A stretch of DNA of 64,000 bases from a virus, in IMG/VR virus record IMGVR_UViG_3300044620_001883, positions 1-64,000 of that record. One strand, written 5' to 3'. Positions 4,924 through 52,083 of this stretch are shown piece by piece; position 1 is the stretch's first letter, and each line of letters opens with the position of its first letter. Made by a program: the position numbers and the translations under genes. The notes below the pieces were generated by a model. The model worked only from the letters and a program-made list of their open reading frames with translations. It searched no databases and had not been told where the DNA came from.

Positions 4924-5280
4924 ATGAAACACATCCTCCTTATCCTGCTCACCTGTACTGCAGCTATCTCTACCCTCCATGCCGTCGACCCGGTCGTGGT
5001 AGTTCGCAGTGCCACCAGTGTCACGGTAGACGGTATCGACTACGGCAAACCTGTCGACGCCATTGCGAACAACCCACAGCTCACCTCACCTATCCAACGC
5101 GCCCTTGAGGTTTGGGTAGCTGGTGTTGTGGCGGCCCAAGCAGAAGCTGAGGCGCAGCGAGCAGCCGAAGCTGCCAAGATTCGCGCGATCCTGAGCGCGC
5201 GCCTCACGGCCGAGCTCGCTACCGGAGACGGGCCCAAAGCTGCGCTCATTCGGGAGATCCAGGCCGCTCTCGAAGAGTAA
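4924..5280 (+). CDS. Small secreted-type protein with helical C-terminus
   Basis: 118 residues. The ATG at 4924 sits 11 bases after the fibre stop. Residues 1-20 form a signal peptide (MKH, hydrophobic core, STLHA). The middle has VVVVRSATSVTVDG. The last 60 residues are Ala/Glu/Gln/Arg-rich and almost certainly helical, perhaps a coiled coil. No family recognised. It directly follows another signal-peptide-bearing gene, so the two products may be exported and act together at the cell envelope. That is inferred from context. Confidence 0.65.
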   Translation: MKHILLILLTCTAAISTLHAVDPVVVVRSATSVTVDGIDYGKPVDAIANNPQLTSPIQRALEVWVAGVVAAQAEAEAQRAAEAAKIRAILSARLTAELATGDGPKAALIREIQAALEE

Positions 5281-5302
5281 CAAACCACACACCCACACCC
5301 TA

Positions 5303-5713
5303 ATGAGCGTACGCCCTCTTTGGCTCGAATCGACCACATTACCCGCGGATGGTGCCCCATTGCGCCTCAAGACCGGTGCTACCGGGGAGGTGGAGGAGGG
5401 AGCTGCAGCCGCACCGTGGACCACCCTCAGTGTGGGGGACACTGGAGCCACCCTTGTGAACAACGCGCGGCATCTGGTGAATACCACAGGCGGTGCAATG
5501 AGCCTTTACTTACCAGGATCACCAAGCGCCGGTGCGAACGTCCGGTTGCTGGATGCCGTCAGGACGTGGGTCTCGAACAACTGCACTGTTTTAAGGAACG
5601 GCGCTCTCATTGAAGGTGCCACTGATGATCTCGTCCTCGATGTCAGCGGTGCCTGTGTGGAGCTTGTCTACAGCGGCGCTGCCTTTGGCTGGCGCGTCAT
5701 CCTCACCCCATAA
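5303..5713 (+). CDS. Virion surface domain protein, fibre C-terminal-domain type
   Basis: 136 residues. Residues about 55-136 follow a pattern common at the C-terminus of phage tail or baseplate appendage proteins. There is a nucleic beta strand with LYLPGSPSAGANVRLLD, then CTVLRNGALIEGATDDLVLD, then VELVYSGAAFGWRV. The pattern (LPxxPxxGxxV, xVxRNGxxIxG, DLxLDVSG, LVYxGxxxGWRV) is familiar from many phage structural annotations. It probably forms a beta-sandwich in a tail appendage. The start has no Shine-Dalgarno. Confidence 0.6.
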   Translation: MSVRPLWLESTTLPADGAPLRLKTGATGEVEEGAAAAPWTTLSVGDTGATLVNNARHLVNTTGGAMSLYLPGSPSAGANVRLLDAVRTWVSNNCTVLRNGALIEGATDDLVLDVSGACVELVYSGAAFGWRVILTP

Positions 5714-5719
5714 AACGGC

Positions 5720-6082
5720 ATGTTGCTCTCGGCTTCATTTCTCGACAACGCCAAGGTTCCCGGTATCGCGGGCCCCCCTGGACCTACGGGGCCCGACGGC
5801 ACAGCGGGCGAACCGGGTCTGCCTGGATCACCTGGACCTGCAGGAGCCGACTATGCTGGCCCGCCGGGCGAACCTGGCAGCCCAGGTGCGGCTGGGCCTG
5901 CGGGGAGCCTGGGACCACCAGGACCGGCTGGTCCACCGGGAAGCGACGGCGCAACAGGCCTCGATGGTGAAGTAGGTTTACCCGGAGGGTTGGGAGAAGA
6001 ACCAGGACCACCAGGACCTAGCGGGCCGGTGGGTCCTCCAGGACCACCAGGACCTGACGGTCCCCCAGGTCCGCCGGGCTAA
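5720..6082 (+). CDS. Collagen-like Gly-X-Y protein 1
   Basis: 120 residues. After a short leader ([14 protein letters not shown]) the chain is nearly all Gly-X-Y triplets rich in GPP, GPA and GPD, with one GEEPGPP-type phase irregularity near residue 90. It ends directly in the repeats with no globular trimerisation domain. Such repeats form triple helices and occur in phage tail fibres. It is first of three consecutive, similarly sized collagen-like genes. A 2OG-Fe(II) oxygenase of the prolyl-hydroxylase type lies 1.2 kb downstream on the same strand. Confidence 0.8.
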
Positions 6083-6103
6083 CTGCGCAACCTTACCAAT
6101 CAC

Positions 6104-6460
6104 ATGATCTCACTTCGTTCCCTCGTTGTTCATACAACTGCTCCGCCAGGACCACCAGGCCCGTCGGGCGCGCCATCACTGTCAAACGGTACGCCTGGGC
6201 TGGATGGTGCCGAAGGTGCGCCTGGTATGCCTGTTCCTGGTCCTCCAGGTCCAGCAGGCGACATGGGAACTTCGGGCGATCCTGGAACCGAAGGCCCACC
6301 CGGACCGACAGGGACAGACGGCAACCCAGGTGCACCAGGAGCTGTCGGACTCACGGGTATCCCCGGACCTCCAGGTCCTCCAGGACCCGATGGACCTCCA
6401 GGACCCGATGGACCTCCAGGACCGGAGGGTCCCGCAGGTCCTCCAGGAACACCTCCCTAA
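6104..6460 (+). CDS. Collagen-like Gly-X-Y protein 2
   Basis: 118 residues. The leader is [13 protein letters not shown], followed by Gly-X-Y triplets to the C-terminus. A non-collagen interruption (APSLSNGTP) occurs near residue 24. Near the end, GPDGPP triplets are repeated as near-identical DNA units (about 6375-6425). No trimerisation domain is visible. Same strand, 21-base gap from the previous collagen-like gene. The leader of about 13-18 residues before the triplets is a shared design of the group. Confidence 0.8.
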
Positions 6461-6486
6461 ATCCCACCCCGCACATCTTCTTCATC

Positions 6487-6837
6487 ATGACCCTATCCAC
6501 CTTACGACCTGTTTTTGTCGGCAATCCTGGCGAACCAGGCACAAGCGGAACTCCAGGAACTGCGGGTCCAGCAGGATCTCCGGGCAGTCCGGGAGCTGAT
6601 GCGCTGGTGCCGGGGCCTCAAGGCGGTCCCGGCGACTCTGGCCCACCGGGTCCTCCAGGCCCTGATGGTTTGCCGGGTCCTCCAGGACCTCCGGGTACCG
6701 ACAACGGGTACGCGGGGATGCCAGGATCTCCGGGGGCACCAGGACCGCCTGGAGTTGGTCCCCCTGGGATCGAAGGCCCTCCCGGAGCGGCTGGACCTCC
6801 AGGACCTCCAGGACCTCCAGGACCCCCTGGCGCGTAG
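6487..6837 (+). CDS. Collagen-like Gly-X-Y protein 3
   Basis: 116 residues. The leader is [11 protein letters not shown], followed by Gly-X-Y triplets with one interruption (DALVPGPQG) and a DNGYAGMPG segment. It ends in GPPGA. Third member of the collagen-like cluster. The three are separated by 21-26 bases and are probably co-transcribed. They may be three chains of a heterotrimer or three interchangeable thin fibres. The sequence cannot decide between these. Confidence 0.8.
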
Positions 6838-6876
6838 GGTAATACCGTTTAAGCGACAGCCCACCATACAAAACTT

Positions 6877-7251
6877 GTGCTCACACCAACCAGCGAGATA
6901 CTCCCAGACCAAATAGGACCTGCGGGTCTTGCTGGTTCGCACGGTCCCAACGACGGGGCGTTCCTGTGTGAATGCATTCGCGGCGCCATGCCACAATTAC
7001 TGCGCGCCTGTGAATTTTACGTGGGCTACTCGCACCACCGCAACCTGACACCAGAACATCCTCTTGTGGTCGCCATAGCGGCGCTTGAAAAAGTCTACGA
7101 GCAGCACATCCATTCTGCAAACATGCTGCACGATCCTGAGTTGTTTCACATCCCGGACACATTGTTCCAGACCCCGACCCAGTACTGGGGCTACCCCGAA
7201 CCAATTGACACACAAGCTCCGACTGGTATGGATGATGCCCATAACCCCTAA
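6877..7251 (+). CDS. Small protein with short Gly-X-Y lead, unknown
   Basis: 124 residues from a GTG at 6877. The N-terminus (MLTPTSEILPDQ) resembles the leaders of the collagen-like proteins. It is followed by one short run (GPAGLAGSHGP) and then a globular His/Tyr-rich part: CECIRGAMPQLLRACEFY, then HPLVVAIAALEKVYEQHIH. It sits between the collagen-like genes and the oxygenase (12-base gap), so it could be the end cap of a collagen-like fibre or an accessory of the oxygenase. No family recognised. Confidence 0.6.
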   Translation: MLTPTSEILPDQIGPAGLAGSHGPNDGAFLCECIRGAMPQLLRACEFYVGYSHHRNLTPEHPLVVAIAALEKVYEQHIHSANMLHDPELFHIPDTLFQTPTQYWGYPEPIDTQAPTGMDDAHNP

Positions 7252-7263
7252 TCCGACAAGCTC

Positions 7264-7845
7264 ATGAATGGCTGGTGGCGCGCATTTTACAATCAACTCA
7301 CTCCTGCCGAGTGTAATCAAGTAATCGAGTACGGGCTCACGCACACACCCGTGCAGGGCACCATCGGGCATGGCGGAGGTACGACTATCGTGCAGCCGGA
7401 TTTCAGGCAGTCTACCGTGCGGTGGTTCAAGCGGAGCGATCCGAAACTCCATTGGCTTTACCTGCGCATGGAGGACATGGCGTTGCAGGCGAACGCCATT
7501 TCGTTTGGGTTTGATATCGCAGGCTTCAGGGATGTGCAGTTCACCGAGTACGACGGTGCCAAGAAGGGCCATTACGACTGGCATGAGGACAATTGCTGGA
7601 AGGGTAGTACGCCGTATGACCGCAAGTTGTCCATGGTCATCCAGCTCTCAGATCCGACCACTTACAAAGGCGGACAGCTGGAGCTGCAGAATGACCCGTT
7701 CCACAACACCCCGGGCAACAAAGTTCTGGTGAATCAGGGGGATGTGATCGTGTTCCCGTCCCATAACCGCCACCGCGTCACTGACGTCACGGAGGGGATG
7801 AGGTACTCGCTCGTGACCTGGTTTATTGGTCCGCGTTTCAGGTGA
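7264..7845 (+). CDS. 2OG-Fe(II) oxygenase, prolyl-4-hydroxylase/PKHD type
   Basis: 193 residues, a single double-stranded beta-helix domain of the usual length for small P4H/PKHD proteins. The iron triad is visible: H107-x-D109 in YDWHEDN, and distal H170 in SHNRHRV. R180 (EGMRYSL) stands 10 residues later, where the 2-oxoglutarate carboxylate is bound. KLSMVIQLSD and GGQLEL match the family core. These enzymes hydroxylate peptidyl proline or other side chains using Fe(II), 2-oxoglutarate and O2. The gene directly follows three collagen-like genes, so proline in GPP triplets is the obvious candidate substrate. The substrate is inference, since phage 2OG oxygenases are common and mostly uncharacterised. 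Confidence 0.85.
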   Translation: MNGWWRAFYNQLTPAECNQVIEYGLTHTPVQGTIGHGGGTTIVQPDFRQSTVRWFKRSDPKLHWLYLRMEDMALQANAISFGFDIAGFRDVQFTEYDGAKKGHYDWHEDNCWKGSTPYDRKLSMVIQLSDPTTYKGGQLELQNDPFHNTPGNKVLVNQGDVIVFPSHNRHRVTDVTEGMRYSLVTWFIGPRFR

Positions 7846-7925
7846 CGATGGTTTGTCAGGGATGACCTGACCTTGGACATTTGTGCTATTGCTGAGCACG
7901 CGCATACGGGCGATTGTTTGAATCT

Positions 7926-8558
7926 ATGATCCCGCCTCCAATCCCTGGTATGTCCGTTGTCCCTGCGACACGCTGCGCCCAGCAGATGCCCCGTTTGCAA
8001 CCTGATGGTCTAGGCAGCATTCGTCTCTACACCGCCACGGTACCTGCTCAGGAATGTGCCGTGCACATCACGCGGGAGAGTCGGATCATTCTGTCAGACC
8101 CACGTGGCAGCCGAGTCTTTCAGGACGCAAACCAACAAGGCGCGCGGTATGCTTGGTTTGTCTTCCAACGTGGTGAGGCTTTGGAGCCCGGCATCTACCG
8201 GCTGAGCTGGCTGCGTAGTGACGGTGTTTTTGGGACGCGGGATTTCGAAGTGCCTGACAGCCCGTTCCACCCGGGGTCCTCATTCGACCTTGCATCGGGT
8301 GCTCGTGATGGTTTTTCGGTGGAGCTGATTTATCGGGGGCACACGATTCTTCCAGCCAATGAGACCTCAGTTCTGCTTGAAGCCCCCTTCGAGCTGAATC
8401 CTATTTACCACCGCCCCGCCTGGGCAATCCTGGCCACAGGTAACAAAGTTGTACCGGGTGTCTCGCTGGAGATCACCCACACGTATCCCAAAGCCTGGCG
8501 TGTGACCTGTTCGCCGGTATCAGACGTGGAACGTCGCATCGACTGGGTTGTCTACTGA
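7926..8558 (+). CDS. Unknown protein, end of the adhesion module
   Basis: 210 residues from the ATG at 7926 (81 bases after the oxygenase). Beta-rich composition. Segments such as ARYAWFVFQRGEALEPGIYRL and FGTRDFEVPDSP look like an immunoglobulin-like or carbohydrate-binding sandwich, but no family is recognised. Its stop overlaps the end of the convergent gene on the minus strand by 7 bases. A virion appendage protein is the most likely role by position. Confidence 0.6.
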   Translation: MIPPPIPGMSVVPATRCAQQMPRLQPDGLGSIRLYTATVPAQECAVHITRESRIILSDPRGSRVFQDANQQGARYAWFVFQRGEALEPGIYRLSWLRSDGVFGTRDFEVPDSPFHPGSSFDLASGARDGFSVELIYRGHTILPANETSVLLEAPFELNPIYHRPAWAILATGNKVVPGVSLEITHTYPKAWRVTCSPVSDVERRIDWVVY

Positions 8559-10954
8559 GCAACAGGCTGAAGATGCGGAGGCTCCCCGTAATACGTTTCC
8601 AGCAACGCGAAGGCCGAGTAGGCGTCAATCTCGATACGGTTGCCCTGATGCACCACCACATCGTCTGCGAGCCGCCGGAGTTCTAGTTCCAATGAGATCA
8701 TGTCCAGCTCGTCAGAGAACCGGTCAGCGTCACAGAAAACCTTCTGGGCCTTGAAGTCATAGCTAAAAATTTCAGCCACCTCCGTCTTGGGTATCTGCTG
8801 CAGCAGCTGCTCCGTCCATTCAAAGGACGGTGTGTCCGCCTCAAGTTCCAAGCCGCAGTAAGTGTGTAGAAACTCGCGCGCGCATGAGATCAGACTGTTC
8901 GTGTACAGAACGGATTGCTGCTGCTGCCACTGATGCGGCTCAGGTAAGGCCAGAAGTGTTTCACACACCCGCCTCACCAAACCCCTCAGGGTCTCAGCCG
9001 CGCGCCCCAAGACTTCCTCGGAATGCTGCTCCCGGACGATCTGGCCGTGGTCGCAGAGCAGGAAGTAGGGGGCGTGGATTTTGCCGGTGACGCGCCCAAC
9101 TGTGGCCCACACGGGGTACTGGTGGAGCCCCTCGGCGTCGCGTTCCACGCGGGAGACCGGACGGATCTGCCCGAGGCCGCGGAACAGTCCCTCCAGGAGC
9201 CCCGCCGCCGGCCCGTCATGGCGGACCTGCACGGCCTGCAGGCGCTCCCCACGCTGGCCCCGGATAATGGAGCCCAGGATCATGAGCATGAAGGTCTGGA
9301 CCTCTCGGGGCAGGTCCAGATCGATCGCGGCATCGAGATGCTTCTCGGCCGAGAAAGCATCTAGGGCCTGGACATCGGGGTGCAGTGGGAAGTCATCCTG
9401 GATGATGCCGTCCATGCCAATGATGGCCCCGGCAGTAAAGAAGGTGTCGCGTTTGAAGTTCCAACCCAGGAACGGCAACCCGATGCGGGTGCTCAATCGT
9501 GGCAGTGTCCCCCGCAGATAGAAGGCCACGCTCCGGAACGCACTGGGGTCCCGCAACATCGGAACCAGGAGGCTCTTCCCCGCAGCCAGGAGTAACTGGA
9601 TGTGCTCCTGGAGCTCCCGGGGCGAATCGAGTAGACGACCCGGCAGGATCATGTCCTGCTGGACATCCCCAATCAGGACCGAGGCCCGGTGGTGCAGGGC
9701 CGCCTTCTCCCCGAATGTCACGTTGCCGTCGATCCGGACAATGAAGTTGCTGAAGAGTTCCAGGGGACCACCACCACGCCTGACCCCATAACCCTCCGGG
9801 GTCTCCAACGTGATGGTCCGGTCAGTACGGGCGATTTCGATGCTGTACAGGGATCGGGCCAGTTGGTCTGCCGCTCCAACAAACCCGGCACTCTTGAGCC
9901 GTCCATGGAGTGCTTGCTTGAGCCACCCCTGTGGGTTGAAGGAACCCAACAGTACAAGACCCTGACTGGTCAAGCTTGAGCGCCGGATGTGCCGCTTCAG
10001 GACTCGGAACATGAAGTCATCGAAGCCCACCGGAGAGCCTGCCCCCATCGCGACCTTGATGTCCGGCCAAGCCCGCTGCATCCGGGCAATCAGGGTCGTC
10101 GATGTGTGTTCGTCGTGTTGGGCCACGAGAGCCGGGAGATCCGGCACCGTACTGTCGCCCTGCCCGAACAGGCATGTCAGCGAGACCGTCAGGGGATCCT
10201 GTACACGCCACCGGCTATTTTGAATCCCGGCCGAGATCGCAGTGTCATGGAGGTACACCTGCTGGGCGGTCGGGGATAACATCCTGAGCCCCGCGACGGC
10301 CACCCGGTAGTTGGTGAAGGGAATAGTAGTCTGCCAAGTTCCTCGGGGGTTCGTCAGCACAACCGCAGAGAGTGCGTGGGCCTTCTCCCAGTAGGCAATC
10401 ATTAACAACGGGGCCTCAGGTGGGAGCTTGGGCTCTGGCAACCCCAACGAGGTAAGCAGGGTCATGAAGGCTGGACGTTCCGCAGGTAGCATAACACCAA
10501 TGAGATGCTGCCCGGGATCGTAGATCCCGAGTTGCTGAAGCTCGGCCAACACGGAGGCCCTGAGACCATTGACATCCAGGGGAGCTTGCAGCTTTCGCAC
10601 GTACTGACATAACCGCCGACGCATTCGGGCTTGGCTGGTTATGAGTGGTACAAAGTTCTCAGGAGTGAACTCAGGACAGCGTAGAATGCGGTCTTGGAAC
10701 AGTCGCAGAAGTTCCTCGAGACCCTTCGCGTAATCACGATGCTTCGCAGACGCAATCTCAACTACGGACCCGGCCAGCATCGGACAGCTGTTATTCTGAC
10801 ACAGGTAGCTGTCGGACTGGATCCAGAGATCTGCACCGCAGTACGGACAGTCCATGATGTAACAATCATTGAGACGTCGCGTGCTGTACCCCAGGTACTC
10901 GGCAGTCTCGAGTGGGCGAATCAATTGTTCCAGTTGCTCCAGGGATTCAAACAT
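8552..10954 (-). CDS. Large protein with N-terminal four-cysteine zinc finger, unknown
   Basis: 800 residues. Residues 36-57 hold CPYCGADL...LCQNNSCP, a four-cysteine zinc site like those at the N-terminus of primases and topoisomerases. The remainder is mixed alpha/beta without a Walker A or Toprim motif that I can find. AAGKS near residue 460 lacks the preceding glycine. Conserved-looking patches are GLPFLGWNFKRDTFFTAG and GSIIRGQRG. It is a monocistronic leftward gene facing the hairpin-rich region at 11 kb. A nucleic-acid-binding role is likely from the finger but not proven. It is one of only two minus-strand genes in the window. Confidence 0.75.
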   Translation of the reverse strand: MFESLEQLEQLIRPLETAEYLGYSTRRLNDCYIMDCPYCGADLWIQSDSYLCQNNSCPMLAGSVVEIASAKHRDYAKGLEELLRLFQDRILRCPEFTPENFVPLITSQARMRRRLCQYVRKLQAPLDVNGLRASVLAELQQLGIYDPGQHLIGVMLPAERPAFMTLLTSLGLPEPKLPPEAPLLMIAYWEKAHALSAVVLTNPRGTWQTTIPFTNYRVAVAGLRMLSPTAQQVYLHDTAISAGIQNSRWRVQDPLTVSLTCLFGQGDSTVPDLPALVAQHDEHTSTTLIARMQRAWPDIKVAMGAGSPVGFDDFMFRVLKRHIRRSSLTSQGLVLLGSFNPQGWLKQALHGRLKSAGFVGAADQLARSLYSIEIARTDRTITLETPEGYGVRRGGGPLELFSNFIVRIDGNVTFGEKAALHHRASVLIGDVQQDMILPGRLLDSPRELQEHIQLLLAAGKSLLVPMLRDPSAFRSVAFYLRGTLPRLSTRIGLPFLGWNFKRDTFFTAGAIIGMDGIIQDDFPLHPDVQALDAFSAEKHLDAAIDLDLPREVQTFMLMILGSIIRGQRGERLQAVQVRHDGPAAGLLEGLFRGLGQIRPVSRVERDAEGLHQYPVWATVGRVTGKIHAPYFLLCDHGQIVREQHSEEVLGRAAETLRGLVRRVCETLLALPEPHQWQQQQSVLYTNSLISCAREFLHTYCGLELEADTPSFEWTEQLLQQIPKTEVAEIFSYDFKAQKVFCDADRFSDELDMISLELELRRLADDVVVHQGNRIEIDAYSAFALLETYYGEPPHLQPVAQ

Positions 10955-11086
10955 ACGGTGGGGTTCAGATTAACGGGGGCGCCCAGGAATGCAAATGCTG
11001 GGGCGGGCGGGAACTATGCAATTCGATGGGTATTCACGTTATAGAGTTTTGGAAGCGGGCTGTTTTAGCGACAACTGCATTCCTCG
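10955..11086. promoter_or_regulatory. Divergent upstream region, no clear promoter
   Basis: This stretch separates the start of the minus-strand gene (10954) from the first hairpin of the candidate RNA. It contains a possible rightward -10 (TATAGA at 11040-11045) without a good -35, and an imperfect inverted repeat (CCCAG...CTGGG around 10983-11002). It must contain the leftward promoter, but no consensus element stands out. Confidence 0.3.
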
Positions 11087-11946
11087 CTTGCACCCTGCGG
11101 GGTGAACAAGATCTGAGTGGAGGACAGCCTCGCGACTCGGCATCGAACATACACACCCCTGGTGGGTTCGACTGACAGTCACATGGGGGATTCACCACAG
11201 CGACGTGTGGTGGTCAGACATATCAAATCTCGTCGCCACCTGCAGCAAGACTACAGGGAAGCCAACACAGTGGATCTGTGCTCTGCAACACTTTAGGACA
11301 TCCACGGATGTCCATGCATGCGCGACTCGAGCGGAGTCGGTGCAGAATAGTTTCCCCGCAAGGGGTCAAAGGAAACCGCAGCGGGTTGCTCTGCCGTGGT
11401 TTCACCTGATGGTGCCGTCGTACGCGCCTACATCACCCAAGCCCTTGAGGCAGTACGATAAGAAGGAGAGCGGCACCGCCCGCTTGCGAATCACCAATTA
11501 AAGGTGGGCAAGTAATCTCTCCTCCCTGGAACTTCCTTTGCGAGCAACAGCTCAGGGAATCCAGGCGGCGGTGCCACATTTCGCCCAGGGCTTCGAGCCA
11601 GGGTATCCGGTTATGGCAACCAACAACGAAGCCACCAAAACCCAAGAGCTGCTCACTCGGCTCTTTGGGATCTGTGACCGCAACGTGGCCCAACAGGCCA
11701 CGTTGCGGAAGCAGAAGGAGGACAACCGCCTAGCGGACCTCCGTCGTCGTGGGACACTCTGGTGTCCTCACAAAAACGAGTGAGCAACCCGTCCCTTCAG
11801 GGACGGGACCCTTTCCCTCGGGATCGCGGTCGACGCGATGCGCAGGAGCTGCTGGAATGTTTACCATCAATGTTGGCGACCAACAGCAGCAGACCACGCC
11901 CTGTTTACCCGGGGTGTGGTCAACAATTTCCCGCGGCATACGCGGG
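11087..11946 (+). ncRNA. Candidate giant structured noncoding RNA
   Basis: About 860 bases hold roughly 18 consecutive hairpins, many perfect. Examples: CACCACA/TGTGGTG at 11193-11212. A three-way junction closed by TCTGCA/TGCAGA (11282-11287/11341-11346), holding GGACATC/GATGTCC (11296-11313) and GACTC/GAGTC (11324-11338). CCCC-GCAA-GGGG with a GNRA loop (11354-11365). AGGAGAG/CTCTCCT (11464-11470/11517-11523) around CTTGC/GCAAG (11483-11512). A 9-pair stem with one bulge (11641-11669). A perfect 13-pair stem (11678-11690/11696-11708). GGAGG-CCGC nested (11717-11742). CCCGTCCC/GGGACGGG (11788-11807). A 9-pair stem with one G-U (11893-11920). CCCGCG/CGCGGG (11930-11946). The GNRA loop and the G-U pair favour the + strand. 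Size and density recall the GOLLD/ROOL class, but homology is not shown. Confidence 0.6.
11613..11783 (+). CDS. Possible 56-residue ORF inside the hairpin-rich region
   Basis: ATG at 11613, giving a short charged, helix-prone peptide (ELLTRLFGICDRN, then LRKQKEDNRLADLRRR). Codon use is not absurd, but the frame contains a perfect 13-pair hairpin, a bulged 9-pair hairpin and a nested GGAGG/CCGC hairpin, and the ATG itself lies in the loop of a 4-pair stem. There is only a weak CAGGG upstream. It is more likely a chance frame inside a structured RNA, though a dual-function RNA is possible. Confidence 0.25.
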   Translation: MATNNEATKTQELLTRLFGICDRNVAQQATLRKQKEDNRLADLRRRGTLWCPHKNE

Positions 11947-11988
11947 CCCCGGCACTGCCACGGTTACACCGGCAGGTAGACACACCAC

Positions 11989-12417
11989 ATGAAAACCATG
12001 CAAAGCATCGGCGGCGTCCTAGTCGCCATCCTCGGCATCACCACCCTCGTGGCAATGATGCAGATCGCGGCCACGGCCGCCGAACCCACGCCAACCAAGG
12101 AGCCTGGCTCCTTGGTTGTCTCCCGCTTCATGGCGGGCGCCTCGACCCTTGAGGCCGAGGCCAAGAAAACGGAGGTCGCCGTCAAGGAGGCCTCCACTGC
12201 GTTGAAGAGCTCGTGGGAGCTCTTCAAACAGGAAATCAGCGCCCGCGCACAGGTGGGTGCCGTGGCGGCAGAACCCGCAGCCGCGGAGTTCGTGGACGCT
12301 GCCATGGCACACGTCACGGCAGAGCAAAGGGCCGCGACCGCGCTGGTCAAGGCCACCGCTGCGGCCGTTCAAGCGGGCGTCACCACCCCCGCCAAGGAGG
12401 TGGCGGTGAAGAAGTGA
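11989..12417 (+). CDS. Membrane-anchored helical protein, unknown
   Basis: 142 residues. Residues about 7-30 form a hydrophobic segment (GGVLVAILGITTLVAMMQIA) followed by ATAAEP, either a signal peptide or a single anchor. The rest is Ala/Glu/Lys/Thr-rich and helical. The coding sequence contains a perfect 11-pair hairpin at 12093-12117. The stop overlaps the GTG of the next small gene, and a strong hairpin terminator follows at 12562. It could be a periplasmic or spanin-like protein, but no diagnostic motif is seen. Confidence 0.6.
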   Translation: MKTMQSIGGVLVAILGITTLVAMMQIAATAAEPTPTKEPGSLVVSRFMAGASTLEAEAKKTEVAVKEASTALKSSWELFKQEISARAQVGAVAAEPAAAEFVDAAMAHVTAEQRAATALVKATAAAVQAGVTTPAKEVAVKK

Positions 12418-12557
12418 AGCGGGCGTCCACACCTTCAGCGCGCCGCCCCGCGCGCTCCCCCGCAGCTCAAGCTCGCCGCAAGGCAGCCCGGGATGCCCGG
12501 CGGGACAACCCCGACTTCCGGGAGCACCGCGAGCTGCGACGCTCAACCAGCGCATGA
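12414..12557 (+). CDS. Very small basic protein, translationally coupled
   Basis: 47 residues from GTG at 12414, overlapping the previous stop (GTGA). AGGAGG stands about 12 bases upstream. The product is extremely basic (repeated AR/RR pairs, few hydrophobic residues), so it probably binds nucleic acid or is disordered. It ends 4 bases before the terminator hairpin, which supports a two-gene transcription unit with the gene at 11989. Confidence 0.45.
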   Translation: MKRASTPSARRPARSPAAQARRKAARDARRDNPDFREHRELRRSTSA

Positions 12558-12561
12558 CCTA

Positions 12562-12597
12562 CGCGGGTGCAGGTGGTGAAAGCCACCTGCACCCGCG
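12562..12597 (+). terminator. Strong hairpin terminator
   Basis: Perfect 15-pair stem (CGCGGGTGCAGGTGG and its complement) with the 6-base loop TGAAAG. It is followed by a short T-containing stretch (CTCTTGTTT) but no uninterrupted T tract. It closes the 11989-12557 unit. Confidence 0.7.
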
Positions 12598-12658
12598 TCC
12601 CGCTCTTGTTTAGCTGTGACTTGCCAAAGCGCGTTCCCGCCAGCATTGTATCAACAAG

Positions 12659-13696
12659 ATGGACTACACCACCGACAACAATCCACGAGCTCTCCACCGG
12701 GCAACCCTGAATGGACTCGAGTTCCCCAAGTACGCATCCGAAGGTGCGTGGCCCTCTGCAGAGGACGTACAGAGTCTGGCGGACACAGCGTTCGCTGACC
12801 GCAAGAACCGGCTGCATCCCCTGCACACCAAAGCGGCGGCTTTCGTGTCAGCCGTGTACTGCGCGAACCTGGATGCGCAGCCGGCACCCGAGATCATCGA
12901 GAATCTCAAGCAAGCCGCGATGGCACATGGTATCGAAGCCGACGTGCTGCCTATCCTAGCCGAGATCAACAACAAGCAAGCCGCTGAAAGTTCCGCCCCG
13001 GATACTTACGCGCTCCGCGATGGCAAGGAACACGCCTTCTACCCTGTGGGTACCAACCACGACATCGAGCATTCCAGCATTGGGATCTTGCGCGATATGC
13101 GCAACAAGCATCTTCCCGTCAAGTGTGCCAGACAGGCCTGCTTGAACCTGGTGCGCCGCGCCGATCAGCTCAAGTACGCGCAGTCGCTGCTACCGGATGA
13201 GATTCTGCTCCTGGGCCGCGACACTGTGGCCCGAGTGGATGCGCTGGAAAAACAGGCGGACTGGCGGGAGCGGCAGACTGGTACAAACCTCTACAAGGAA
13301 GCGGTCGATATGTTCCGCAGCAACCCCACCGAGGAAAACCGCCAGGCTGGTGCGGAAGCCTGGGAGCAACTCGACGAAGCCTGTGGGATCAAACAATCCA
13401 GCCTGACCCCCTCTGTGGCGTCCTGCTGGTTCGCTGGTACTGATCTGGTTGCCGTCAAAGCCGCGGCTCGTCACATGGTTTGGCTCGGCGATGAGTCTGT
13501 ACCTAGTGGCGTGTTCTCAACCGTTCCGCCGGAAGTCTACCAGAGCTGGTACGGCGCCCACGAACAGGAAAAGATCGCGGCGGTGTTTGAGGCCGCGGCC
13601 CGCGACGGGCTTGAGGCTTCGGAGTTGCTGGATGCCATGACAGGCGACGAGCGCGCCGTGCTGGCAGGACATCTACAACGCCACCACCGTCCTTGA
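12659..13696 (+). CDS. Unknown 345-residue protein
   Basis: 345 residues, Ala-rich, predicted mostly helical. The region around residues 110-170 (YALRDGKEHAFYPVGTNHDIEH, then LRDMRNKHLPVKCARQACLNLVRRADQL) has the look of a repeated helical unit also found in large phage proteins that list residues to be cleaved or counted. I cannot name a family. No membrane or signal segment. It starts a + strand run after the terminator at 12562 and is followed 8 bases later by another unknown gene. A virion role is possible. Confidence 0.65.
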   Translation: MDYTTDNNPRALHRATLNGLEFPKYASEGAWPSAEDVQSLADTAFADRKNRLHPLHTKAAAFVSAVYCANLDAQPAPEIIENLKQAAMAHGIEADVLPILAEINNKQAAESSAPDTYALRDGKEHAFYPVGTNHDIEHSSIGILRDMRNKHLPVKCARQACLNLVRRADQLKYAQSLLPDEILLLGRDTVARVDALEKQADWRERQTGTNLYKEAVDMFRSNPTEENRQAGAEAWEQLDEACGIKQSSLTPSVASCWFAGTDLVAVKAAARHMVWLGDESVPSGVFSTVPPEVYQSWYGAHEQEKIAAVFEAAARDGLEASELLDAMTGDERAVLAGHLQRHHRP

Positions 13697-13704
13697 TCTG
13701 AATC

Positions 13705-14367
13705 ATGCCACTCTTGGAAATTAACCGCGACGCGGCAGCGGAGTTGCTGCTCAACCCGGAGATATTCGGGCTGACCGTCGCGGTTATCCTTGAGGCCACG
13801 TTTGAGCCGGCGGTGCTGTACGGACAGGACACCGGCGAACCTTTGGACGCGCTGACGATATTCCACGAGCTGGAACGCAAGTACCGGGTGCAGTTGAACG
13901 AGGCCGCGCAGAATAAAGTGCAGGCTGTCATGACCCTGCACACCACAGAGGCCTACGAGAATGATCCACTGGCCTTCACTGGCATCACGCTGGCCCTCAC
14001 AGAGGGATATCTGGGTGATCTCGTGACAGGCACGCTGGAAGAGCTGGATGGTCCAGCAGTGATGTGGAGCCTCTTCGAGGCCGCTGCAATTGACCCGTAC
14101 CTGCGCCAGCTGGGTCCTGATGTCCAGCAGCTCGCCTATGACGCGCTCATGCTGCCTGAAGACAGTGAGGATGCGGATGGGGTGGAGGATATAGCAGATC
14201 CCATGACCGAGTTCACAGAGCAGTTGCAGCTGTTGCAGAAACAGCTGCGGACACTCGAGATGTCCCAGAAGCTAGCCAATCAGCTGATACAACGCGGCCT
14301 TGCCGCATTACCAGATGTCGACGAACAAAATCAAGGACCAGATTATCAAGCGCCGGATCAGTTCTGA
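13705..14367 (+). CDS. Unknown acidic helical protein
   Basis: 220 residues, acidic. The first 150 residues are mixed hydrophobic/acidic helices (EINRDAAAELLLNPEIFGL, then VAVILEATFEPAVLYG). Residues about 165-200 are predicted coiled coil (TEQLQLLQKQLRTLEMSQKLANQL). The last 20 are Gln/Asp-rich and disordered. Its 3' end overlaps the next gene by 53 bases. No family recognised. Confidence 0.65.
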   Translation: MPLLEINRDAAAELLLNPEIFGLTVAVILEATFEPAVLYGQDTGEPLDALTIFHELERKYRVQLNEAAQNKVQAVMTLHTTEAYENDPLAFTGITLALTEGYLGDLVTGTLEELDGPAVMWSLFEAAAIDPYLRQLGPDVQQLAYDALMLPEDSEDADGVEDIADPMTEFTEQLQLLQKQLRTLEMSQKLANQLIQRGLAALPDVDEQNQGPDYQAPDQF

Positions 14368-14500
14368 GCGCAGGAAGACGTCAATCGATGCTGTGATGGG
14401 TTTGACCAACGCAGATTGTCCCAAGGAGATCAAGGTTTCCAAGCATGTGCCACTGGCGCGTGACGTCTGGACGGAGCTGGAGGAGCGCATCAAGGCATGA
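14315..14500 (+). CDS. Small basic protein, overlapping both neighbours
   Basis: 61 residues from ATG 14315, overlapping the end of the previous gene by 53 bases and the start of the next by 4 (ATGA). Basic N-terminus (KIKDQIIKRRISSERRK), acidic C-terminus (ELEERIKA). Could bind nucleic acid. No family recognised. Confidence 0.5.
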   Translation: MSTNKIKDQIIKRRISSERRKTSIDAVMGLTNADCPKEIKVSKHVPLARDVWTELEERIKA

Positions 14501-14949
14501 ACGCACCCCCGTTAGCGGATCTGAAGCACCCCATGCAACCCGTCGGCAGAAGCCCGAACGGAAACCTGCGCTTCAAAGCAAACACCATCGTTGAGTACTT
14601 GCTGAACCACGGGGGGATCGACATGAACAAACTGGCGCTGCTCCATTTCGAGCCAGAAGAGCGAGAGCACTTCGCGCAGCTGATCGGGTACTCGGTGAGC
14701 GGGTACGCCGACCTGTCCTACGCCTCGCCGGATGTTGTAAAGCGCGCCTATGCGACTGCCTTGGCTCCCGGAGAAGCGCCGGGCATAGTCTTCGCTGTTT
14801 CAAATGATGGCGGGAAGACCGGCGTGGCGTGGCGCGACAATCTCCAGGAAGCCATGGCATACTGCGACAAGCAAAACGCCAACGGAGGTGATTATGCGGT
14901 AGTGGCAGTCCGCCGGAAGTCGCACCCAGTACAGGAGGATGAGACGTGA
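14497..14949 (+). CDS. Conserved phage-type protein of unknown function
   Basis: 150 residues with GGAGGAG upstream. Residues 12-65 (MQPVGRSPNGNLRFKANTIV, then YLLNHGGIDMNKLA, then REHFAQLIGYSVSGYADLSY) match a pattern I recognise from many phage and prophage hypothetical proteins: a short 'RFK.N.IV..LL..G..D.N.L......ED..HFAQLIGYS.SG...L.Y' unit. Function unknown. The C-terminal half contains SNDGGKTGVAW and DYAVVAVRRK beta strands. Start and stop overlap both neighbours, consistent with an operon. Confidence 0.7.
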   Translation: MNAPPLADLKHPMQPVGRSPNGNLRFKANTIVEYLLNHGGIDMNKLALLHFEPEEREHFAQLIGYSVSGYADLSYASPDVVKRAYATALAPGEAPGIVFAVSNDGGKTGVAWRDNLQEAMAYCDKQNANGGDYAVVAVRRKSHPVQEDET

Positions 14950-15215
14950 GCACCCTGACGCCCGCTGAAGCACAACGGCTGAGTGACATTGCGCTGGAAA
15001 TTTACGGGGCCGTCGAATACGGCAACATGGAGAAGGCCAGACGGCTTGTGCTCCAGCACAGCGGCGCGGCCGAGATCGAACGTCTCCGGGCAGGTGTGCA
15101 GGCGGCCGTAAACGATATCGACACGGAGGTCCGCGAGGGGTGGGGAAACGAGTCCTTCTTGGCAGGGGTGTCCCTGCAGCTGACCAATTTACTGAACGGA
15201 CAGGAGGCAGCATGA
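14946..15215 (+). CDS. Small helical protein
   Basis: 89 residues from GTG at 14946, with AGGAGG about 10 bases upstream and overlapping the previous stop. Helical, moderately acidic (AEAQRLSDIALEIYGAVEYG, then IERLRAGVQAAVNDI). No family recognised. Confidence 0.6.
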   Translation: MSTLTPAEAQRLSDIALEIYGAVEYGNMEKARRLVLQHSGAAEIERLRAGVQAAVNDIDTEVREGWGNESFLAGVSLQLTNLLNGQEAA

Positions 15216-15637
15216 GCGGATCCCTAAGTTCAGCCATGTCACGTATGGCCTGTCATCAGGGTATGGGTGACGTTTGTCAGCAGGTGCGGCACTTCGCTGA
15301 ATCGCTAACCGCGGAGGACAAAGAGCTGCTCATGGCTGCGGTTCAGGGTCCCAAAAGCATCAAAGTGCTGTCACTGGATCAGCTTGAGGAAGAGGCTCGT
15401 AAACACGAGGAGCAGATGGACCGCAACTTCGAGTACGACGCAAGGCTTGGATACCTCACCATTCACGTCGCTTACCCGTACCACATCGAATTGAGACGTA
15501 TCCCTGACCTGGAGGGGCTTGTCCCGTGGGTCGAACATCTCTCAGGTAAAGGTTGGATGACGGCAGACTTGATAAGGGAATTCATTCGACGTGTGTGCTT
15601 TATTAAAGGTTGGAAGCTTTATCGCCGGAATCTCTGA
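15212..15637 (+). CDS. Unknown 141-residue protein
   Basis: ATG at 15212 preceded by AGGAGG with ideal spacing, overlapping the previous stop. The N-terminal 75 residues are helical (CQQVRHFAESLTAEDKELLMAAV) with a charged helix (EEEARKHEEQMDRNFEY). The C-terminal part contains a beta hairpin (LGYLTIHVAYPYHIEL) and a basic tail. No family recognised. Part of the 14315-16181 cluster of overlapping small genes. Confidence 0.6.
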   Translation: MSGSLSSAMSRMACHQGMGDVCQQVRHFAESLTAEDKELLMAAVQGPKSIKVLSLDQLEEEARKHEEQMDRNFEYDARLGYLTIHVAYPYHIELRRIPDLEGLVPWVEHLSGKGWMTADLIREFIRRVCFIKGWKLYRRNL

Positions 15638-15638
15638 G

Positions 15639-16181
15639 ATGGGTACAGATAGTGCTGCATCATTCACTCCTGTACCCCACCATGTCGTACTTCGGCGTTC
15701 CTGGTTTTTACCGACGTGGGAAGGTTTGCGGTACAAAGAGGCGCCCGCGAAACATCCACGACTGAAGACCCCCTTCTCCGGTGTTGTGAACTTCTCCACG
15801 CAGTTACCGCCCATGGGCAAGCCCTACCCGGTTTTGAACCAAGTGGCGTATGACATGATGCGTAGGCTTCGCCGCGAACTCTCATGTGACATGCCTCCAA
15901 TGGATGAATCCCGCCATGGGGAGGCTTGGTTGGATATACACAACGGAGAACCCTTGGGATGTGTGACGATAAACATGGAAGCAGGCGAGCGCTTTTTGCT
16001 TGGTGCCTGGGTGCGGCCTTGTAGCAGGCGACAAGGGATCATGACGCGTTTGCTGGGCGCCGTCGCATGCAAGTACGGCAGCTTGCGGGCCATCCGACCG
16101 TCCCCGGCAATGAGAAACCTGCTAGCCCTTGACCACCATTCCCCGGAAAGCCGCCATGTTGCCGGTGTGGAGCCCACCTGA
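15639..16181 (+). CDS. GNAT-like acetyltransferase domain protein
   Basis: 180 residues from ATG 15639, one base after the previous stop. Residues about 100-165 look like the GNAT core. There is a strand (CVTINMEAGERFLLGAWV) followed by RPCSRRQGIMTRLL, which fits the acetyl-CoA pyrophosphate loop pattern R/Q-x-x-G-x-G/A with one deviation, and then a helix. GNAT enzymes transfer acetyl groups to amines. The substrate is unknown. Its last 60 bases overlap the 3' end of the terminase gene on the opposite strand, which is unusual. Confidence 0.5.
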   Translation: MGTDSAASFTPVPHHVVLRRSWFLPTWEGLRYKEAPAKHPRLKTPFSGVVNFSTQLPPMGKPYPVLNQVAYDMMRRLRRELSCDMPPMDESRHGEAWLDIHNGEPLGCVTINMEAGERFLLGAWVRPCSRRQGIMTRLLGAVACKYGSLRAIRPSPAMRNLLALDHHSPESRHVAGVEPT

Positions 16182-19100
16182 GGAACCATTGAGCTGGTCG
16201 TTGACGTAGTTGCGCAGATTCGGATCGTCGAACATGGGCTCCTTGAGCAGCAGCCGCGCTAGCACGAAGGCGAAGTTGACGGCATGCATGGTGTCGTCCG
16301 CCTTCGTGGAGTTGCGGATATGCAGGAAGTACTGACGCCCGTGACGGGTCTCGGCGTGCACACGCTGGCTGTTCAGGAAGTCATCCAAGTAAGGTTGGGC
16401 TGCGTCCCAAGCGTAACAGCGGATGCGCTGTTTCTTGATGGCTTCAAACAACTGCGTGATCGACTCAGTTTTGTTCAGCATGTACTGGGCTGGGAACTGC
16501 TGGAACTGCGGACGCGTGATCATTGGCAGATAGGGTGGAGAATAACCCCAGACGAAGTGCCGGTTGGGGTTCACACGCGCGTCGCGGTGGAGATAGGTGT
16601 TGTAGGCAAGCCCCGCGCCGAAGTCACTCGCAATCGCGGTGCCGCCGTATTCTGCGTGGGCCTTCAAGATGGACTCCGCGATTTCATCGTACTGCATACC
16701 CGAGTAACGGCGCATGTACAGGATGTCCATTTTGCCGTCTCCGTAGACACCCAGGATGATATGCACCGTGTAAGACGTCTTGGTCAGCCGGGACATCTGC
16801 GCGTCGGAGCCGCCCCAGTCACAACCGCTGACAATGAACCGATACGGGTTCTTGCTCTTGATGGCTTTGTGCAGCTGCGAGATGTCCCGGTAGGGGAGGG
16901 TGCAGATCGCCTGCAGATCCTTCTGGTTGATTTCTTTGAAGCCTTCCTCGGTTGCGATACCCCCAACTTCCTGCAAGGTCCTGGTCTCGCCGAAGTCCTG
17001 CAAGTACTTGAAGATCTTGGGCCACTCCTTGGGTGTCAGGAAGTCTGGAATCAGAAACTGTGGGATATGGATCCCGAGGATATTCTGATCGAGCTTGTGG
17101 GGTGCGGCGTGGGCATAGACACCATTTAGGGGGTTTGTAATCAGCCGGTCCGTGAATGGACACGTGAGACCCTTCTCCCGGATCATCTTCAGGACCTGTA
17201 CGCCGTCGGAACAGTCGATGAAGTCCTTGCCGTTCGGACTGCGCATCATCCACACGCCACCTGAACTCTGCTGGAACCGGTGCTCCAGTGGGCTGTCGAT
17301 CGTCGTCGAGGTACCGCTGTAGACCGTCACCGGGTTGCTGGTGTTGCGCTGCAGCTGCCGGATTTCAGCCTCAAGTCTGATGTCGAACAACTGATACTCA
17401 TCGTAGAGCAGTTCGTCGGCGGTTTTACCGCGCATGTGGGCCGCGCTAGTGAGCACGCGGTGCAGCTCGATGCGGCTGCCCGTCTTGTACTCCTTGAACT
17501 GCAGATTGTTGCGGAAACCCTTGGTCTCCAGGGAGTAACGGAAGCAGCGCTCCATGTCCCGCAGTTTGGTCGCGTAGGTCTTGATGTGATCCAGGTGCGG
17601 TGCGATGTAGATCGACACCCACGGCATCAACTGGGTCAGGATCAACTGCCGGGCTGACATATTCGTGGAGTTGTGACTCACGACTCCATTGATGACGTAG
17701 CTGTGGTGTCCATCCACCTCAATGTCCCACGCCGGTAGAGTACCAAGAGGTTTGATGCTACGTACTGAGGTCCAAGTTACAGGACCTTCAACAAGGTTAC
17801 GCAGCTGTCGGAACAACAGGCCGGGTCTGCCGTGCCTCTCAACGTAACCCAGCAGCGCGCGCAATTTGCGTCGCGTATACGAATTGGAGCTGTGCAGCTT
17901 CAACCCGATTGCCCGGTTCATACCCTTGATGGAAATGCGTTTGCCTGGAATACATGCTTCCTTCAGGACAGCGTGGATAAGTGCATGATACGAACCAGGC
18001 AACACGTCCTTGTTGCTGTTGGAAACCGTGGACGTGATACGCTCGGGAAGACGGTTCATCTCCTTGCCTGGAACCTGAAACAGTTCAATGAAAGTCTGCC
18101 AACCCTCACGACTTTCAATGCGCACAACATGCGCGTCACGGCAACGTTTGTACACACCATCCTTTTTGTACCCAGCCTTGACTGTGCTCAAGGATGAAGG
18201 CAAGCCGAACTTCCACAAGAGAGCCTGAACCCCTTCGGCCAATTTGCGGGAAGTGGACGAATACGTGATTTGCATCATCGTAGCCGCTGGTTTCACCATA
18301 CCATCCGTCGCCCACAGGTAATTGATGAACTCTATAGTGTCCTCAAAAGAAAGGTCAAAGACCCAAGCTGGGATCTGTTTATCCCAGGCATACTTGCCTA
18401 TCAGGTTGTCCTCAATGGCCCATTGCAACACTTCACCATCTCGGTTGCAGGCAATATGCACTGCATGTGTTCCCTTCTTATCATGGACCCGCACAGGGCG
18501 AGCTTGGCGTGGAGTGCAAATGCGCACAAACTCATCACGCAGTGCAGCATTGGCAGCGGTGAAACTGACAGTCCGATCTACCGTACTGCCATCGCCCAGG
18601 ATCATGGCCAGCAGGCGAATCCGATCCAAACCAGGGACCGCAGTGCCGGTGAACACCCCACCTTGACGCACATCCGCTACGAAATCGCCGACTTTCAAAT
18701 CTCTCACTTCTTTCCAGCCTTCGGGAGTGAGAAGTCGGTGGTTGTCCGACAGTTTAAGTTGCGCACCAGACCGCAGAGAAACTTCGCTGCACGGTAGTAC
18801 TCCCGCTTGGTGGACTGCCTGCACAGTGTGTTCACACAGTGTGTGCTCGTGGGGGTTCACACCGACTAGACGCATACCGGCTTTCAGGTCAGCCGGGTAG
18901 CATGGTAGCCCGTTGTGCCCCATTACAGGCTCATTTGCACCAACGACCCGGCATTTACTGATCTGCCGCGAACCCTTGATGACCAAGTACCCCTGGGTCA
19001 TCATTGAGTACATCGGAAAAGCAAACGGCCGCCGGCTCAGTGTCATAGGTGTGTTGGGCCCCCCGAAGTGGGGGAAGAACCAAGGTAACAAGAAGCCTGT

Positions 19101-19253
19101 ATTGAACTGGCAGGCTTCCAGGGCCAGCATGAGAGCACGCTGACGGTCTTTCTTCTCAACCTGCGCGACCTTCTCCAGTGCCTTCTGCATCGTGTCCCGG
19201 AATACCGGGTCTTCCCTTGCGAGTTTGGCGAAGTCGTGGTTGTGTTGGGACAT
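16122..19253 (-). CDS. terL: Terminase large subunit with an intein
   Basis: 1043 residues from ATG 19253 (GTG at 19271 is an alternative). About 428 residues are an intein inserted in the Walker A loop. The spliced product is about 615 residues, normal for TerL. It has the ATPase loop SRQISK/STNMSARQ, Walker B LLYDEYQ, and an RNase H-like nuclease with acidic residues in SGCDWGGSD, IASDFGAG and KADDTMHAV. The motor packages DNA into the prohead and cuts it. Encoded leftward, unlike almost all neighbours, with a short divergent region to the gene at 19376. No small terminase was identified nearby. Confidence 0.92.
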   Translation of the reverse strand: MSQHNHDFAKLAREDPVFRDTMQKALEKVAQVEKKDRQRALMLALEACQFNTGFLLPWFFPHFGGPNTPMTLSRRPFAFPMYSMMTQGYLVIKGSRQISKCRVVGANEPVMGHNGLPCYPADLKAGMRLVGVNPHEHTLCEHTVQAVHQAGVLPCSEVSLRSGAQLKLSDNHRLLTPEGWKEVRDLKVGDFVADVRQGGVFTGTAVPGLDRIRLLAMILGDGSTVDRTVSFTAANAALRDEFVRICTPRQARPVRVHDKKGTHAVHIACNRDGEVLQWAIEDNLIGKYAWDKQIPAWVFDLSFEDTIEFINYLWATDGMVKPAATMMQITYSSTSRKLAEGVQALLWKFGLPSSLSTVKAGYKKDGVYKRCRDAHVVRIESREGWQTFIELFQVPGKEMNRLPERITSTVSNSNKDVLPGSYHALIHAVLKEACIPGKRISIKGMNRAIGLKLHSSNSYTRRKLRALLGYVERHGRPGLLFRQLRNLVEGPVTWTSVRSIKPLGTLPAWDIEVDGHHSYVINGVVSHNSTNMSARQLILTQLMPWVSIYIAPHLDHIKTYATKLRDMERCFRYSLETKGFRNNLQFKEYKTGSRIELHRVLTSAAHMRGKTADELLYDEYQLFDIRLEAEIRQLQRNTSNPVTVYSGTSTTIDSPLEHRFQQSSGGVWMMRSPNGKDFIDCSDGVQVLKMIREKGLTCPFTDRLITNPLNGVYAHAAPHKLDQNILGIHIPQFLIPDFLTPKEWPKIFKYLQDFGETRTLQEVGGIATEEGFKEINQKDLQAICTLPYRDISQLHKAIKSKNPYRFIVSGCDWGGSDAQMSRLTKTSYTVHIILGVYGDGKMDILYMRRYSGMQYDEIAESILKAHAEYGGTAIASDFGAGLAYNTYLHRDARVNPNRHFVWGYSPPYLPMITRPQFQQFPAQYMLNKTESITQLFEAIKKQRIRCYAWDAAQPYLDDFLNSQRVHAETRHGRQYFLHIRNSTKADDTMHAVNFAFVLARLLLKEPMFDDPNLRNYVNDQLNGSSGGLHTGNMAAFRGMVVKG
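17670..18953 (-). mobile_element. Intein with LAGLIDADG-type homing endonuclease in terL
   Basis: 428 codons. It begins with Cys (CRVVGANEPV, block A) and ends HN immediately before a Ser extein residue (VINGVVSHN/S), the standard splice junctions. Block B is visible (LKLSDNHRLLTPEGW). The two dodecapeptide motifs are LAMILGDGS and INYLWATDGMV, so the endonuclease is probably complete. Removal joins RQISK to STNMS and restores the P-loop. Inteins spread by cutting intein-free alleles, and the P-loop is a typical target because it is conserved. Confidence 0.92.
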
Positions 19254-19375
19254 GAGAGGAGATGGAACCACCTTTGCTTACCTGGGGAGCTCACCCCCAC
19301 AGGTATTCGGGCCTATGCGTATCGCAAGTTCGTTCTGGACGACTCAGGTAGGAGCCGTTACAACAGTCGACCAAG

Positions 19376-51670: not shown

Positions 51671-51708
51671 GTTCGCAATACAGCGACCTTCCACGTTATA
51701 GATATTTG

Positions 51709-52083
51709 GTGAAGAGATTCATCAACACGGTTGAGACCTGGGTCCGCAAGGGCAGCCAGGTCGCCCTGATCCAACTTGGTTGGATCGGGAAACCCCTCGC
51801 ACTATTGTGCGGGGTGGTTGTTGTAGGCGCACTTATCCTTGGCGGGTGTTCCGCCTTGGTTTGGGTGTTCGCCGACGGGCTGCGTATCCTGCTCGTCACC
51901 TTCGTGGTGGCGTGCATGGTGCCCTGGAATGCCGTCCTGCCTTTGTGCAGCGGTGTCGCAGCCCTTGTAGCGGTGGGAGAGTTGCTACCGACTCTCCTCA
52001 GCATACTGCCCACTTTGGGTAGTGTGTGGGTACTCCTAACGGTGCTGCGGGTCTTTCAGGGCCCGGAAAGGAGGTCAGCATGA
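51709..52083 (+). CDS. Multi-pass membrane protein
   Basis: 124 residues from GTG 51709 (TTG 51706 is one codon earlier). After an amphipathic start (KRFINTVETWVRKGSQV) there are three to four hydrophobic segments: about 25-48 (LALLCGVVVVGALILGGCSAL), 55-75, 78-95 and 97-115. C-terminus PERRSA is basic. This size and topology suit a holin or other phage membrane protein, but there is no adjacent endolysin, so the role is open. Confidence 0.55.
   Translation: MKRFINTVETWVRKGSQVALIQLGWIGKPLALLCGVVVVGALILGGCSALVWVFADGLRILLVTFVVACMVPWNAVLPLCSGVAALVAVGELLPTLLSILPTLGSVWVLLTVLRVFQGPERRSA

Follow-up and report, generated by a model that had tools for sequence, protein, structure and literature searches.

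Between two conserved, divergent phage genes lies what appears to be a lineage-specific rightward transcription unit of ~1.5 kb (Table 1), and we lean, by no great measure, towards reading this insert as a structured mRNA that carries two genes behind a pseudoknotted leader domain and whose folding probably acts in cis. The message would encode two small orphan proteins, a helical one of 56 aa and one of 142 aa whose N terminus resembles a signal peptide or membrane anchor. It would be tightly folded, coding frames included, and open mainly at the two translation starts, through which ribosomes would enter, and a compact domain with a probable pseudoknot would precede the first of them. Folding in cis would most likely hold down or meter translation and/or protect the transcript. 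The unit belongs to a 64-kb window (the whole 64,000-nucleotide stretch analysed) that is part of a virus record of 200,255 bases, in which a phage terminase bearing an intein, SbcC/SbcD-like proteins, helicases and a DNA polymerase are encoded.

Table 1. Coordinates of the unit, its flanking genes and its predicted features (positions in the window)
Feature	Position	Strand	Evidence or remark
Left flanking conserved gene, 800 aa	8552-10954	-	Homologues in 4/4 first relatives and in most of the later ones
Whole insert, read as one transcription unit	11060-12615	+	Fold z and synteny
Weak promoter-like TTTTAGCGAC, possible unit start	11063-11072	+	One mismatch to TTAGCTA; inference
5' leader, ordinary hairpins, little above chance	11087-11392	+	z -2.05; 3/100 shuffles as good
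Leader hairpin TCGTAC..GTACGA, inner GCCT/AGGC	11417-11459	+	z -3.74 for 11415-11465
Compact leader domain: 9-bp closing stem GGCACCGCC/GGCGGTGCC, two arms, candidate pseudoknot	11464-11580	+	z -4.0
ORF 56 aa, codon-supported, predicted single long helix	11613-11783	+	Codon score 0.18; AlphaFold2 pLDDT 87.5
13-bp perfect hairpin inside 56-aa ORF	11678-11708	+	z -8.75 for 11671-11716
Hairpin array between ORFs, including 11788-11807 (8 bp) and 11892-11921	11784-11988	+	z about -5.1 to -5.2 (+), -2.8 (-)
ORF 142 aa, hydrophobic N-terminal segment (signal-peptide or TM-like), codon-supported	11989-12417	+	Codon score 0.26
12-bp perfect hairpin inside 142-aa ORF	12092-12118	+	z -5.1 for 12088-12122
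11-bp perfect hairpin inside 142-aa ORF	12202-12227	+	Genome hairpin scan
16-bp perfect terminal hairpin, GAAA loop, then CCCGCTCTTGTTT; read as terminator	12561-12598	+	z -7.35 for 12555-12610
Promoter-like GTTTAGCTGT, TTAGCTA variant (12609) right after terminal hairpin	12608-12617	+	~50 bases before 345-aa gene
Right flanking conserved gene, 345 aa	12659-13696	+	Homologues in relatives

Related IMG/VR loci were gathered by a terminase search (first four, later 34; identity 35-46%). In the first four relatives the homologues of the 800-aa (minus) and 345-aa (plus) genes are directly divergent with a gap of ~0.1 kb or less, and profile searches of further loci, a few near-duplicates among them, found the flanking genes abutting in ~20 loci. 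The sites that depart from this arrangement are those of the window (1.7 kb), L033 (813 bp), L050 (3.2 kb) and one species group (L038, L039, L041, L054) in which the 800-aa gene has the other orientation. Because the flanking genes abut in ~20 related loci, the 11060-12615 unit is, judged by gene order, an insertion between them, in line with the original prediction, which has it stand apart, with a leftward gene on one side and the rightward arm on the other. The insert, ~1.5-1.7 kb long, is known only from this phage, in whose genome it is single copy; searches of phage, plasmid, IMG/VR and genome collections returned no homologue of it (the best match, at E 0.3, was not used) or of the 56-aa and 142-aa proteins. 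The description of the region as gene-poor holds for ~10955-11612 and fails beyond, where two frames are codon-supported. At the same site L050 carries, next to an inverted 800-aa gene, a 3.2-kb insert (14168-17420) that contains an ORF for an HNH-like endonuclease (14471-15025) and a tmRNA carried by the phage (15191-15594; 65.8 bits).

The segment originally proposed as a giant hairpin-dense RNA, 11087-11946, folds better than shuffled sequence, as expected of it, its minimum free energy being -390.4 where shuffles average -314.5 (z -9.5; 0/20 shuffles as good; minus strand z -6.7). Over the whole unit z reaches -12.25 on the plus and -10.87 on the minus strand; values in neighbouring coding controls on both sides run from ~0 to -1.6, and the mean for non-coding segments from the rest of the genome is -0.6. 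The extent of the proposed RNA needs redrawing at both ends: strong folding sets in at ~11393 and runs on past 11946 to ~12600, whereas the first ~300 nt of the segment are little above chance (Table 1), and 10955-11392, cut into ~200-nt segments, gives z -0.3 and -0.9. Further along, z is about -3.4 to -3.7 on the plus and -0.9 on the minus strand for 11393-11612 and, against shuffles, -6.9 for 11613-11783, -5.2 for 11989-12417 and -6.7 for the 3' hairpin region. Perfect hairpins whose stems reach 10 bp or more number 11 in the 200-kb genome, and four of these fall in 11678-12598; hairpins with stems of at least 7 bp number 139 in 200 kb and are hence common. The stems of the unit differ in sequence and form no repeated-hairpin family. 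Of the individual elements named in the original prediction, those confirmed are the perfect stems of 13 bp (11678-11708), 8 bp (11788-11807) and, twice, 7 bp (11193-11212, 11296-11313), the GNRA loop (GCAA in CCCC-GCAA-GGGG near 11354-11365) and, in the sequence, the TCTGCA/TGCAGA pair.

Both longer frames of the unit use codons as genes do. Scored against ORFs in dinucleotide-shuffled copies of the unit, the 56-aa frame is matched by 0.05% of shuffled ORFs (p about 5e-4) and the 142-aa frame by 0 of ~4,000 (p below 2.5e-4), both scores falling mid-range for real genes of the phage; the 56-codon frame had been called weak, which its gene-like codon usage contradicts. A 47-aa ORF at 12414-12557, considered as a third gene, was rejected as not codon-supported. 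The 142-aa protein has a 19-residue hydropathy of 2.27 at its N terminus and an all-helical predicted model of low confidence (pLDDT 58.9). Relative to synonymous-codon permutations, for which 853 coding segments of the genome served as reference (mean z -0.3, sd 1.2), the 56-aa ORF has a folding z of -6.2 (rank 1/853) and the halves of the 142-aa ORF have z -4.06 (rank 7/853) and -4.62 (rank 3/853). Folding in both ORFs exceeds what protein sequence and codon usage give. Codon periodicity in 11613-11783, named beforehand as grounds for refuting the RNA proposal, is indeed there, yet folding surpasses synonymous shuffles (z about -6), so that codon usage does not account for the folding.

By the partition function of the unit, the two non-overlapping 32-nt windows of the plus strand with the least pairing begin at 11978 and 11609, where the ORFs of 142 aa and 56 aa, respectively, have their starts. 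Their lead over the windows that follow is slight (0.588 and 0.587, then 0.585 and 0.583); the minus strand is ordinary at both start sites (18th and 58th percentile). Since SD-like motifs are barely enriched in this phage (34/186 genes vs 29/186 at a control position), the open starts of the predicted fold plausibly serve as an initiation cue. E. coli operon mRNAs are made of ORF-wide folded modules punctuated by open starts, and their folding is anticorrelated with translation (Burkhardt et al., PMC5318159). The window unit looks like an extreme case of these messages (PMC5318159), sharing with them coding frames folded as modules and low pairing at starts; unlike them, it is the folding extreme of its genome, an orphan phage insert and the bearer of a pseudoknot-like leader.

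The minimum free energy structure of the compact leader domain is identical to its centroid. Just 5' of its closing stem, AGGAGAG (11464-11470) is perfectly complementary over 7 bases to CTCTCCT (11517-11523) in an unpaired junction, and a 7-bp crossing helix of this kind arises in 2/2000 shuffles, about a dozen independent places having been tested. The modelled pairing is suggestive, though not conclusive, of a pseudoknot, which we regard as probable. A covariance model of the domain (R1, 11464-11580) run against 25 records, its own included, matched only itself, with no structural match in the 24 related records.

TTAGCTA is enriched upstream of genes of this phage, five of its eight genomic copies being intergenic and 16-104 bases before a start, mostly directly after a hairpin. 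Variants of this motif at either end of the unit would, by likeness and position, act as promoters, and the terminal hairpin as a terminator, although a T-run terminator scan missed it; a sigma-70 scan found no promoters. Together, the terminal hairpin and the weak TTTTAGCGAC at 11063 make the proposal that the region is transcribed on its own a plausible one. A candidate phage promoter motif, TTAGCTAT, occurs in intergenic regions of G000 (e.g. 52916, 71121, 130287, 150168), where it directly follows hairpins and precedes genes by 16-57 bases.

A folded insert is also found between the same gene neighbours in L033, a distant relative (IMG/VR contig 3300028364_000018). It spans 813 bp (5410-6222) and has a fold z of -10.5 on the equivalent strand (leader -3.8, ORF -3.0, 3' part -7.4). 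Its 65-aa ORF starts at the least-paired spot of the insert and folds moderately beyond synonymous permutation (z -2.8) and hardly beyond sampled codons (z -1.1). Promoter-like TTTTAGCTACT / TTTTAGCTA stands before the 345-aa homologue, in a place matching that of GTTTAGCTGT. The two inserts are alike in their neighbours, a folded leader, a short ORF opening at the least-paired spot and a strong 3' hairpin, and unlike in length (813 bp vs 1.7 kb) and in sequence. Neither protein nor covariance-model comparison detected any similarity between them, the 56-aa and 65-aa proteins showing no homology, and for this reason we claim no common descent; the L033 insert matched no known RNA family. A second folded insert at this site points to a possible hot spot for cargo of this kind.

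Dense folding in a phage brings to mind the large RNAs GOLLD and ROOL, which assemble into an RNA-only cage. The original prediction placed the region in the class of GOLLD, ROOL and similar ornate RNAs, or in a new one. Membership in GOLLD, ROOL, OLE or HEARO was rejected: Rfam gave no match in the window at gathering thresholds and, with the cut-off relaxed to E <= 5 on 10900-12100, nothing but ArcZ and HgcF, both far under their thresholds. GOLLD and ROOL are often sited near a phage tRNA island (PMC12286853), whereas the sole tRNA of the 64-kb window lies at 63387, ~51 kb away, and neither a tRNA nor a tmRNA was found within the insert. The insert shares with GOLLD and ROOL its size, dense folding and phage-borne nature; it differs from them in having no Rfam match, no tRNA array nearby and codon-supported ORFs. 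We think it unlikely that the insert represents a new class of stand-alone ornate non-coding RNA with incidental ORFs, or a dual-function RNA working mainly as RNA. The whole-unit z of -12, a compact leader domain with its probable pseudoknot, the plus-strand bias of the folded non-coding parts and the folded insert that a second phage, L033, has at the matching site would all suit such an RNA. A giant non-coding RNA is made less likely by the coding evidence: two codon-supported ORFs lie among the best-folded parts, and their start codons are the least-paired spots of the unit, which does not agree with RNA only. The weak folding of the first 300 nt, the failure of Rfam and of the leader-domain model to find counterparts in databases and in 24 related records, respectively, and the want of sequence kinship with the L033 insert also count against it. 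A precedent for the dual-function variant is S. aureus RNAIII, which is 514 nt long and codes for a helical peptide of 26 aa (PMC8383071); a dense RNA fold and a short helical ORF within stems are common to both, while the insert has two ORFs and no sequence or family relation to RNAIII.

What counts for the structured mRNA is the plus-strand bias of leader and spacer folding, the strand specificity of the open starts and the L033 insert with the same plan; counted against it are the absence of detected homologues of either protein and a third small ORF that is not codon-supported. Folding inside the ORFs, about equal on both strands and G-U-poor in the 56-aa ORF (nearly perfect stems with 3.6% G-U pairs vs 9.6% in shuffles), is a further point against it, and because of it DNA-level causes may operate within the ORFs. 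The hairpins would then be palindromes tied to replication, recombination, packaging or palindrome-making mutation, with RNA folding as a by-product, an explanation to which we give rather little credence. Other orphan genes of the phage (69753-71060, 148192-149142) are likewise hairpin-rich, as palindromes at the DNA level would lead one to expect, but the plus-strand bias in 11393-11612 and 11784-11988, the strand-specific open starts, the dissimilar stems and the single genomic copy speak against them. Most improbable, in our estimate, is that two small genes were inserted as ordinary cargo together with terminator-type and regulatory hairpins, any extra folding being functionless. Large phages commonly have small orphan genes and terminator hairpins, and a GC content of 64-70% across 11800-12800, where the window has 58%, is a hint of foreign origin; such cargo would nevertheless leave three coding segments folding 4 to 6 standard deviations beyond codon-preserving controls.

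If the structured-mRNA reading is correct, mRNA folding in a DNA phage would here reach a natural extreme: coding and folding constraints would bear on the same sequence while the starts stay open, in a genome that shows hardly any Shine-Dalgarno signal. The purpose of strong ORF folding would then become directly testable. A more far-reaching idea, to which we attach little confidence, is that the inserts represent a new kind of phage element: fast-evolving, dense coding RNAs with a pseudoknotted leader and short helical ORFs in stems, having RNA and message roles, and placed independently, or diverged beyond recognition, at one site in one clade. Since the codon and synonymous-shuffle tests changed the reading of this region, dense hairpins alone should not be deemed sufficient for an ornate non-coding RNA.

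Several further observations lie outside the unit. The orphan genes at 69753-71060 (L018 5753-7060) and 148192-149142 (L022 4192-5142) fold beyond synonymous shuffles, with z down to -4.5 and -5.6, respectively, the former having no homologue among 19 related records. Window positions 51671-52079 are strongly folded too (51671-51900, z -5.5, with minimum free energy and centroid structures almost the same) and overlap a TTG-start ORF (51706-52083) whose protein has a hydrophobic segment. The terminase large subunit (window 16122-19271) has a LAGLIDADG domain inside its intein, and the terminases of relatives align on either side of the intein stretch but not over the greater part of it. G000 encodes an RNA-polymerase beta-prime-like protein (159844-162834) whose translation, inspected by eye, seems to include an intein, and L039 carries a tRNA array and a group I intron (80.8 bits) at 4997-9543, upstream of its terminase.
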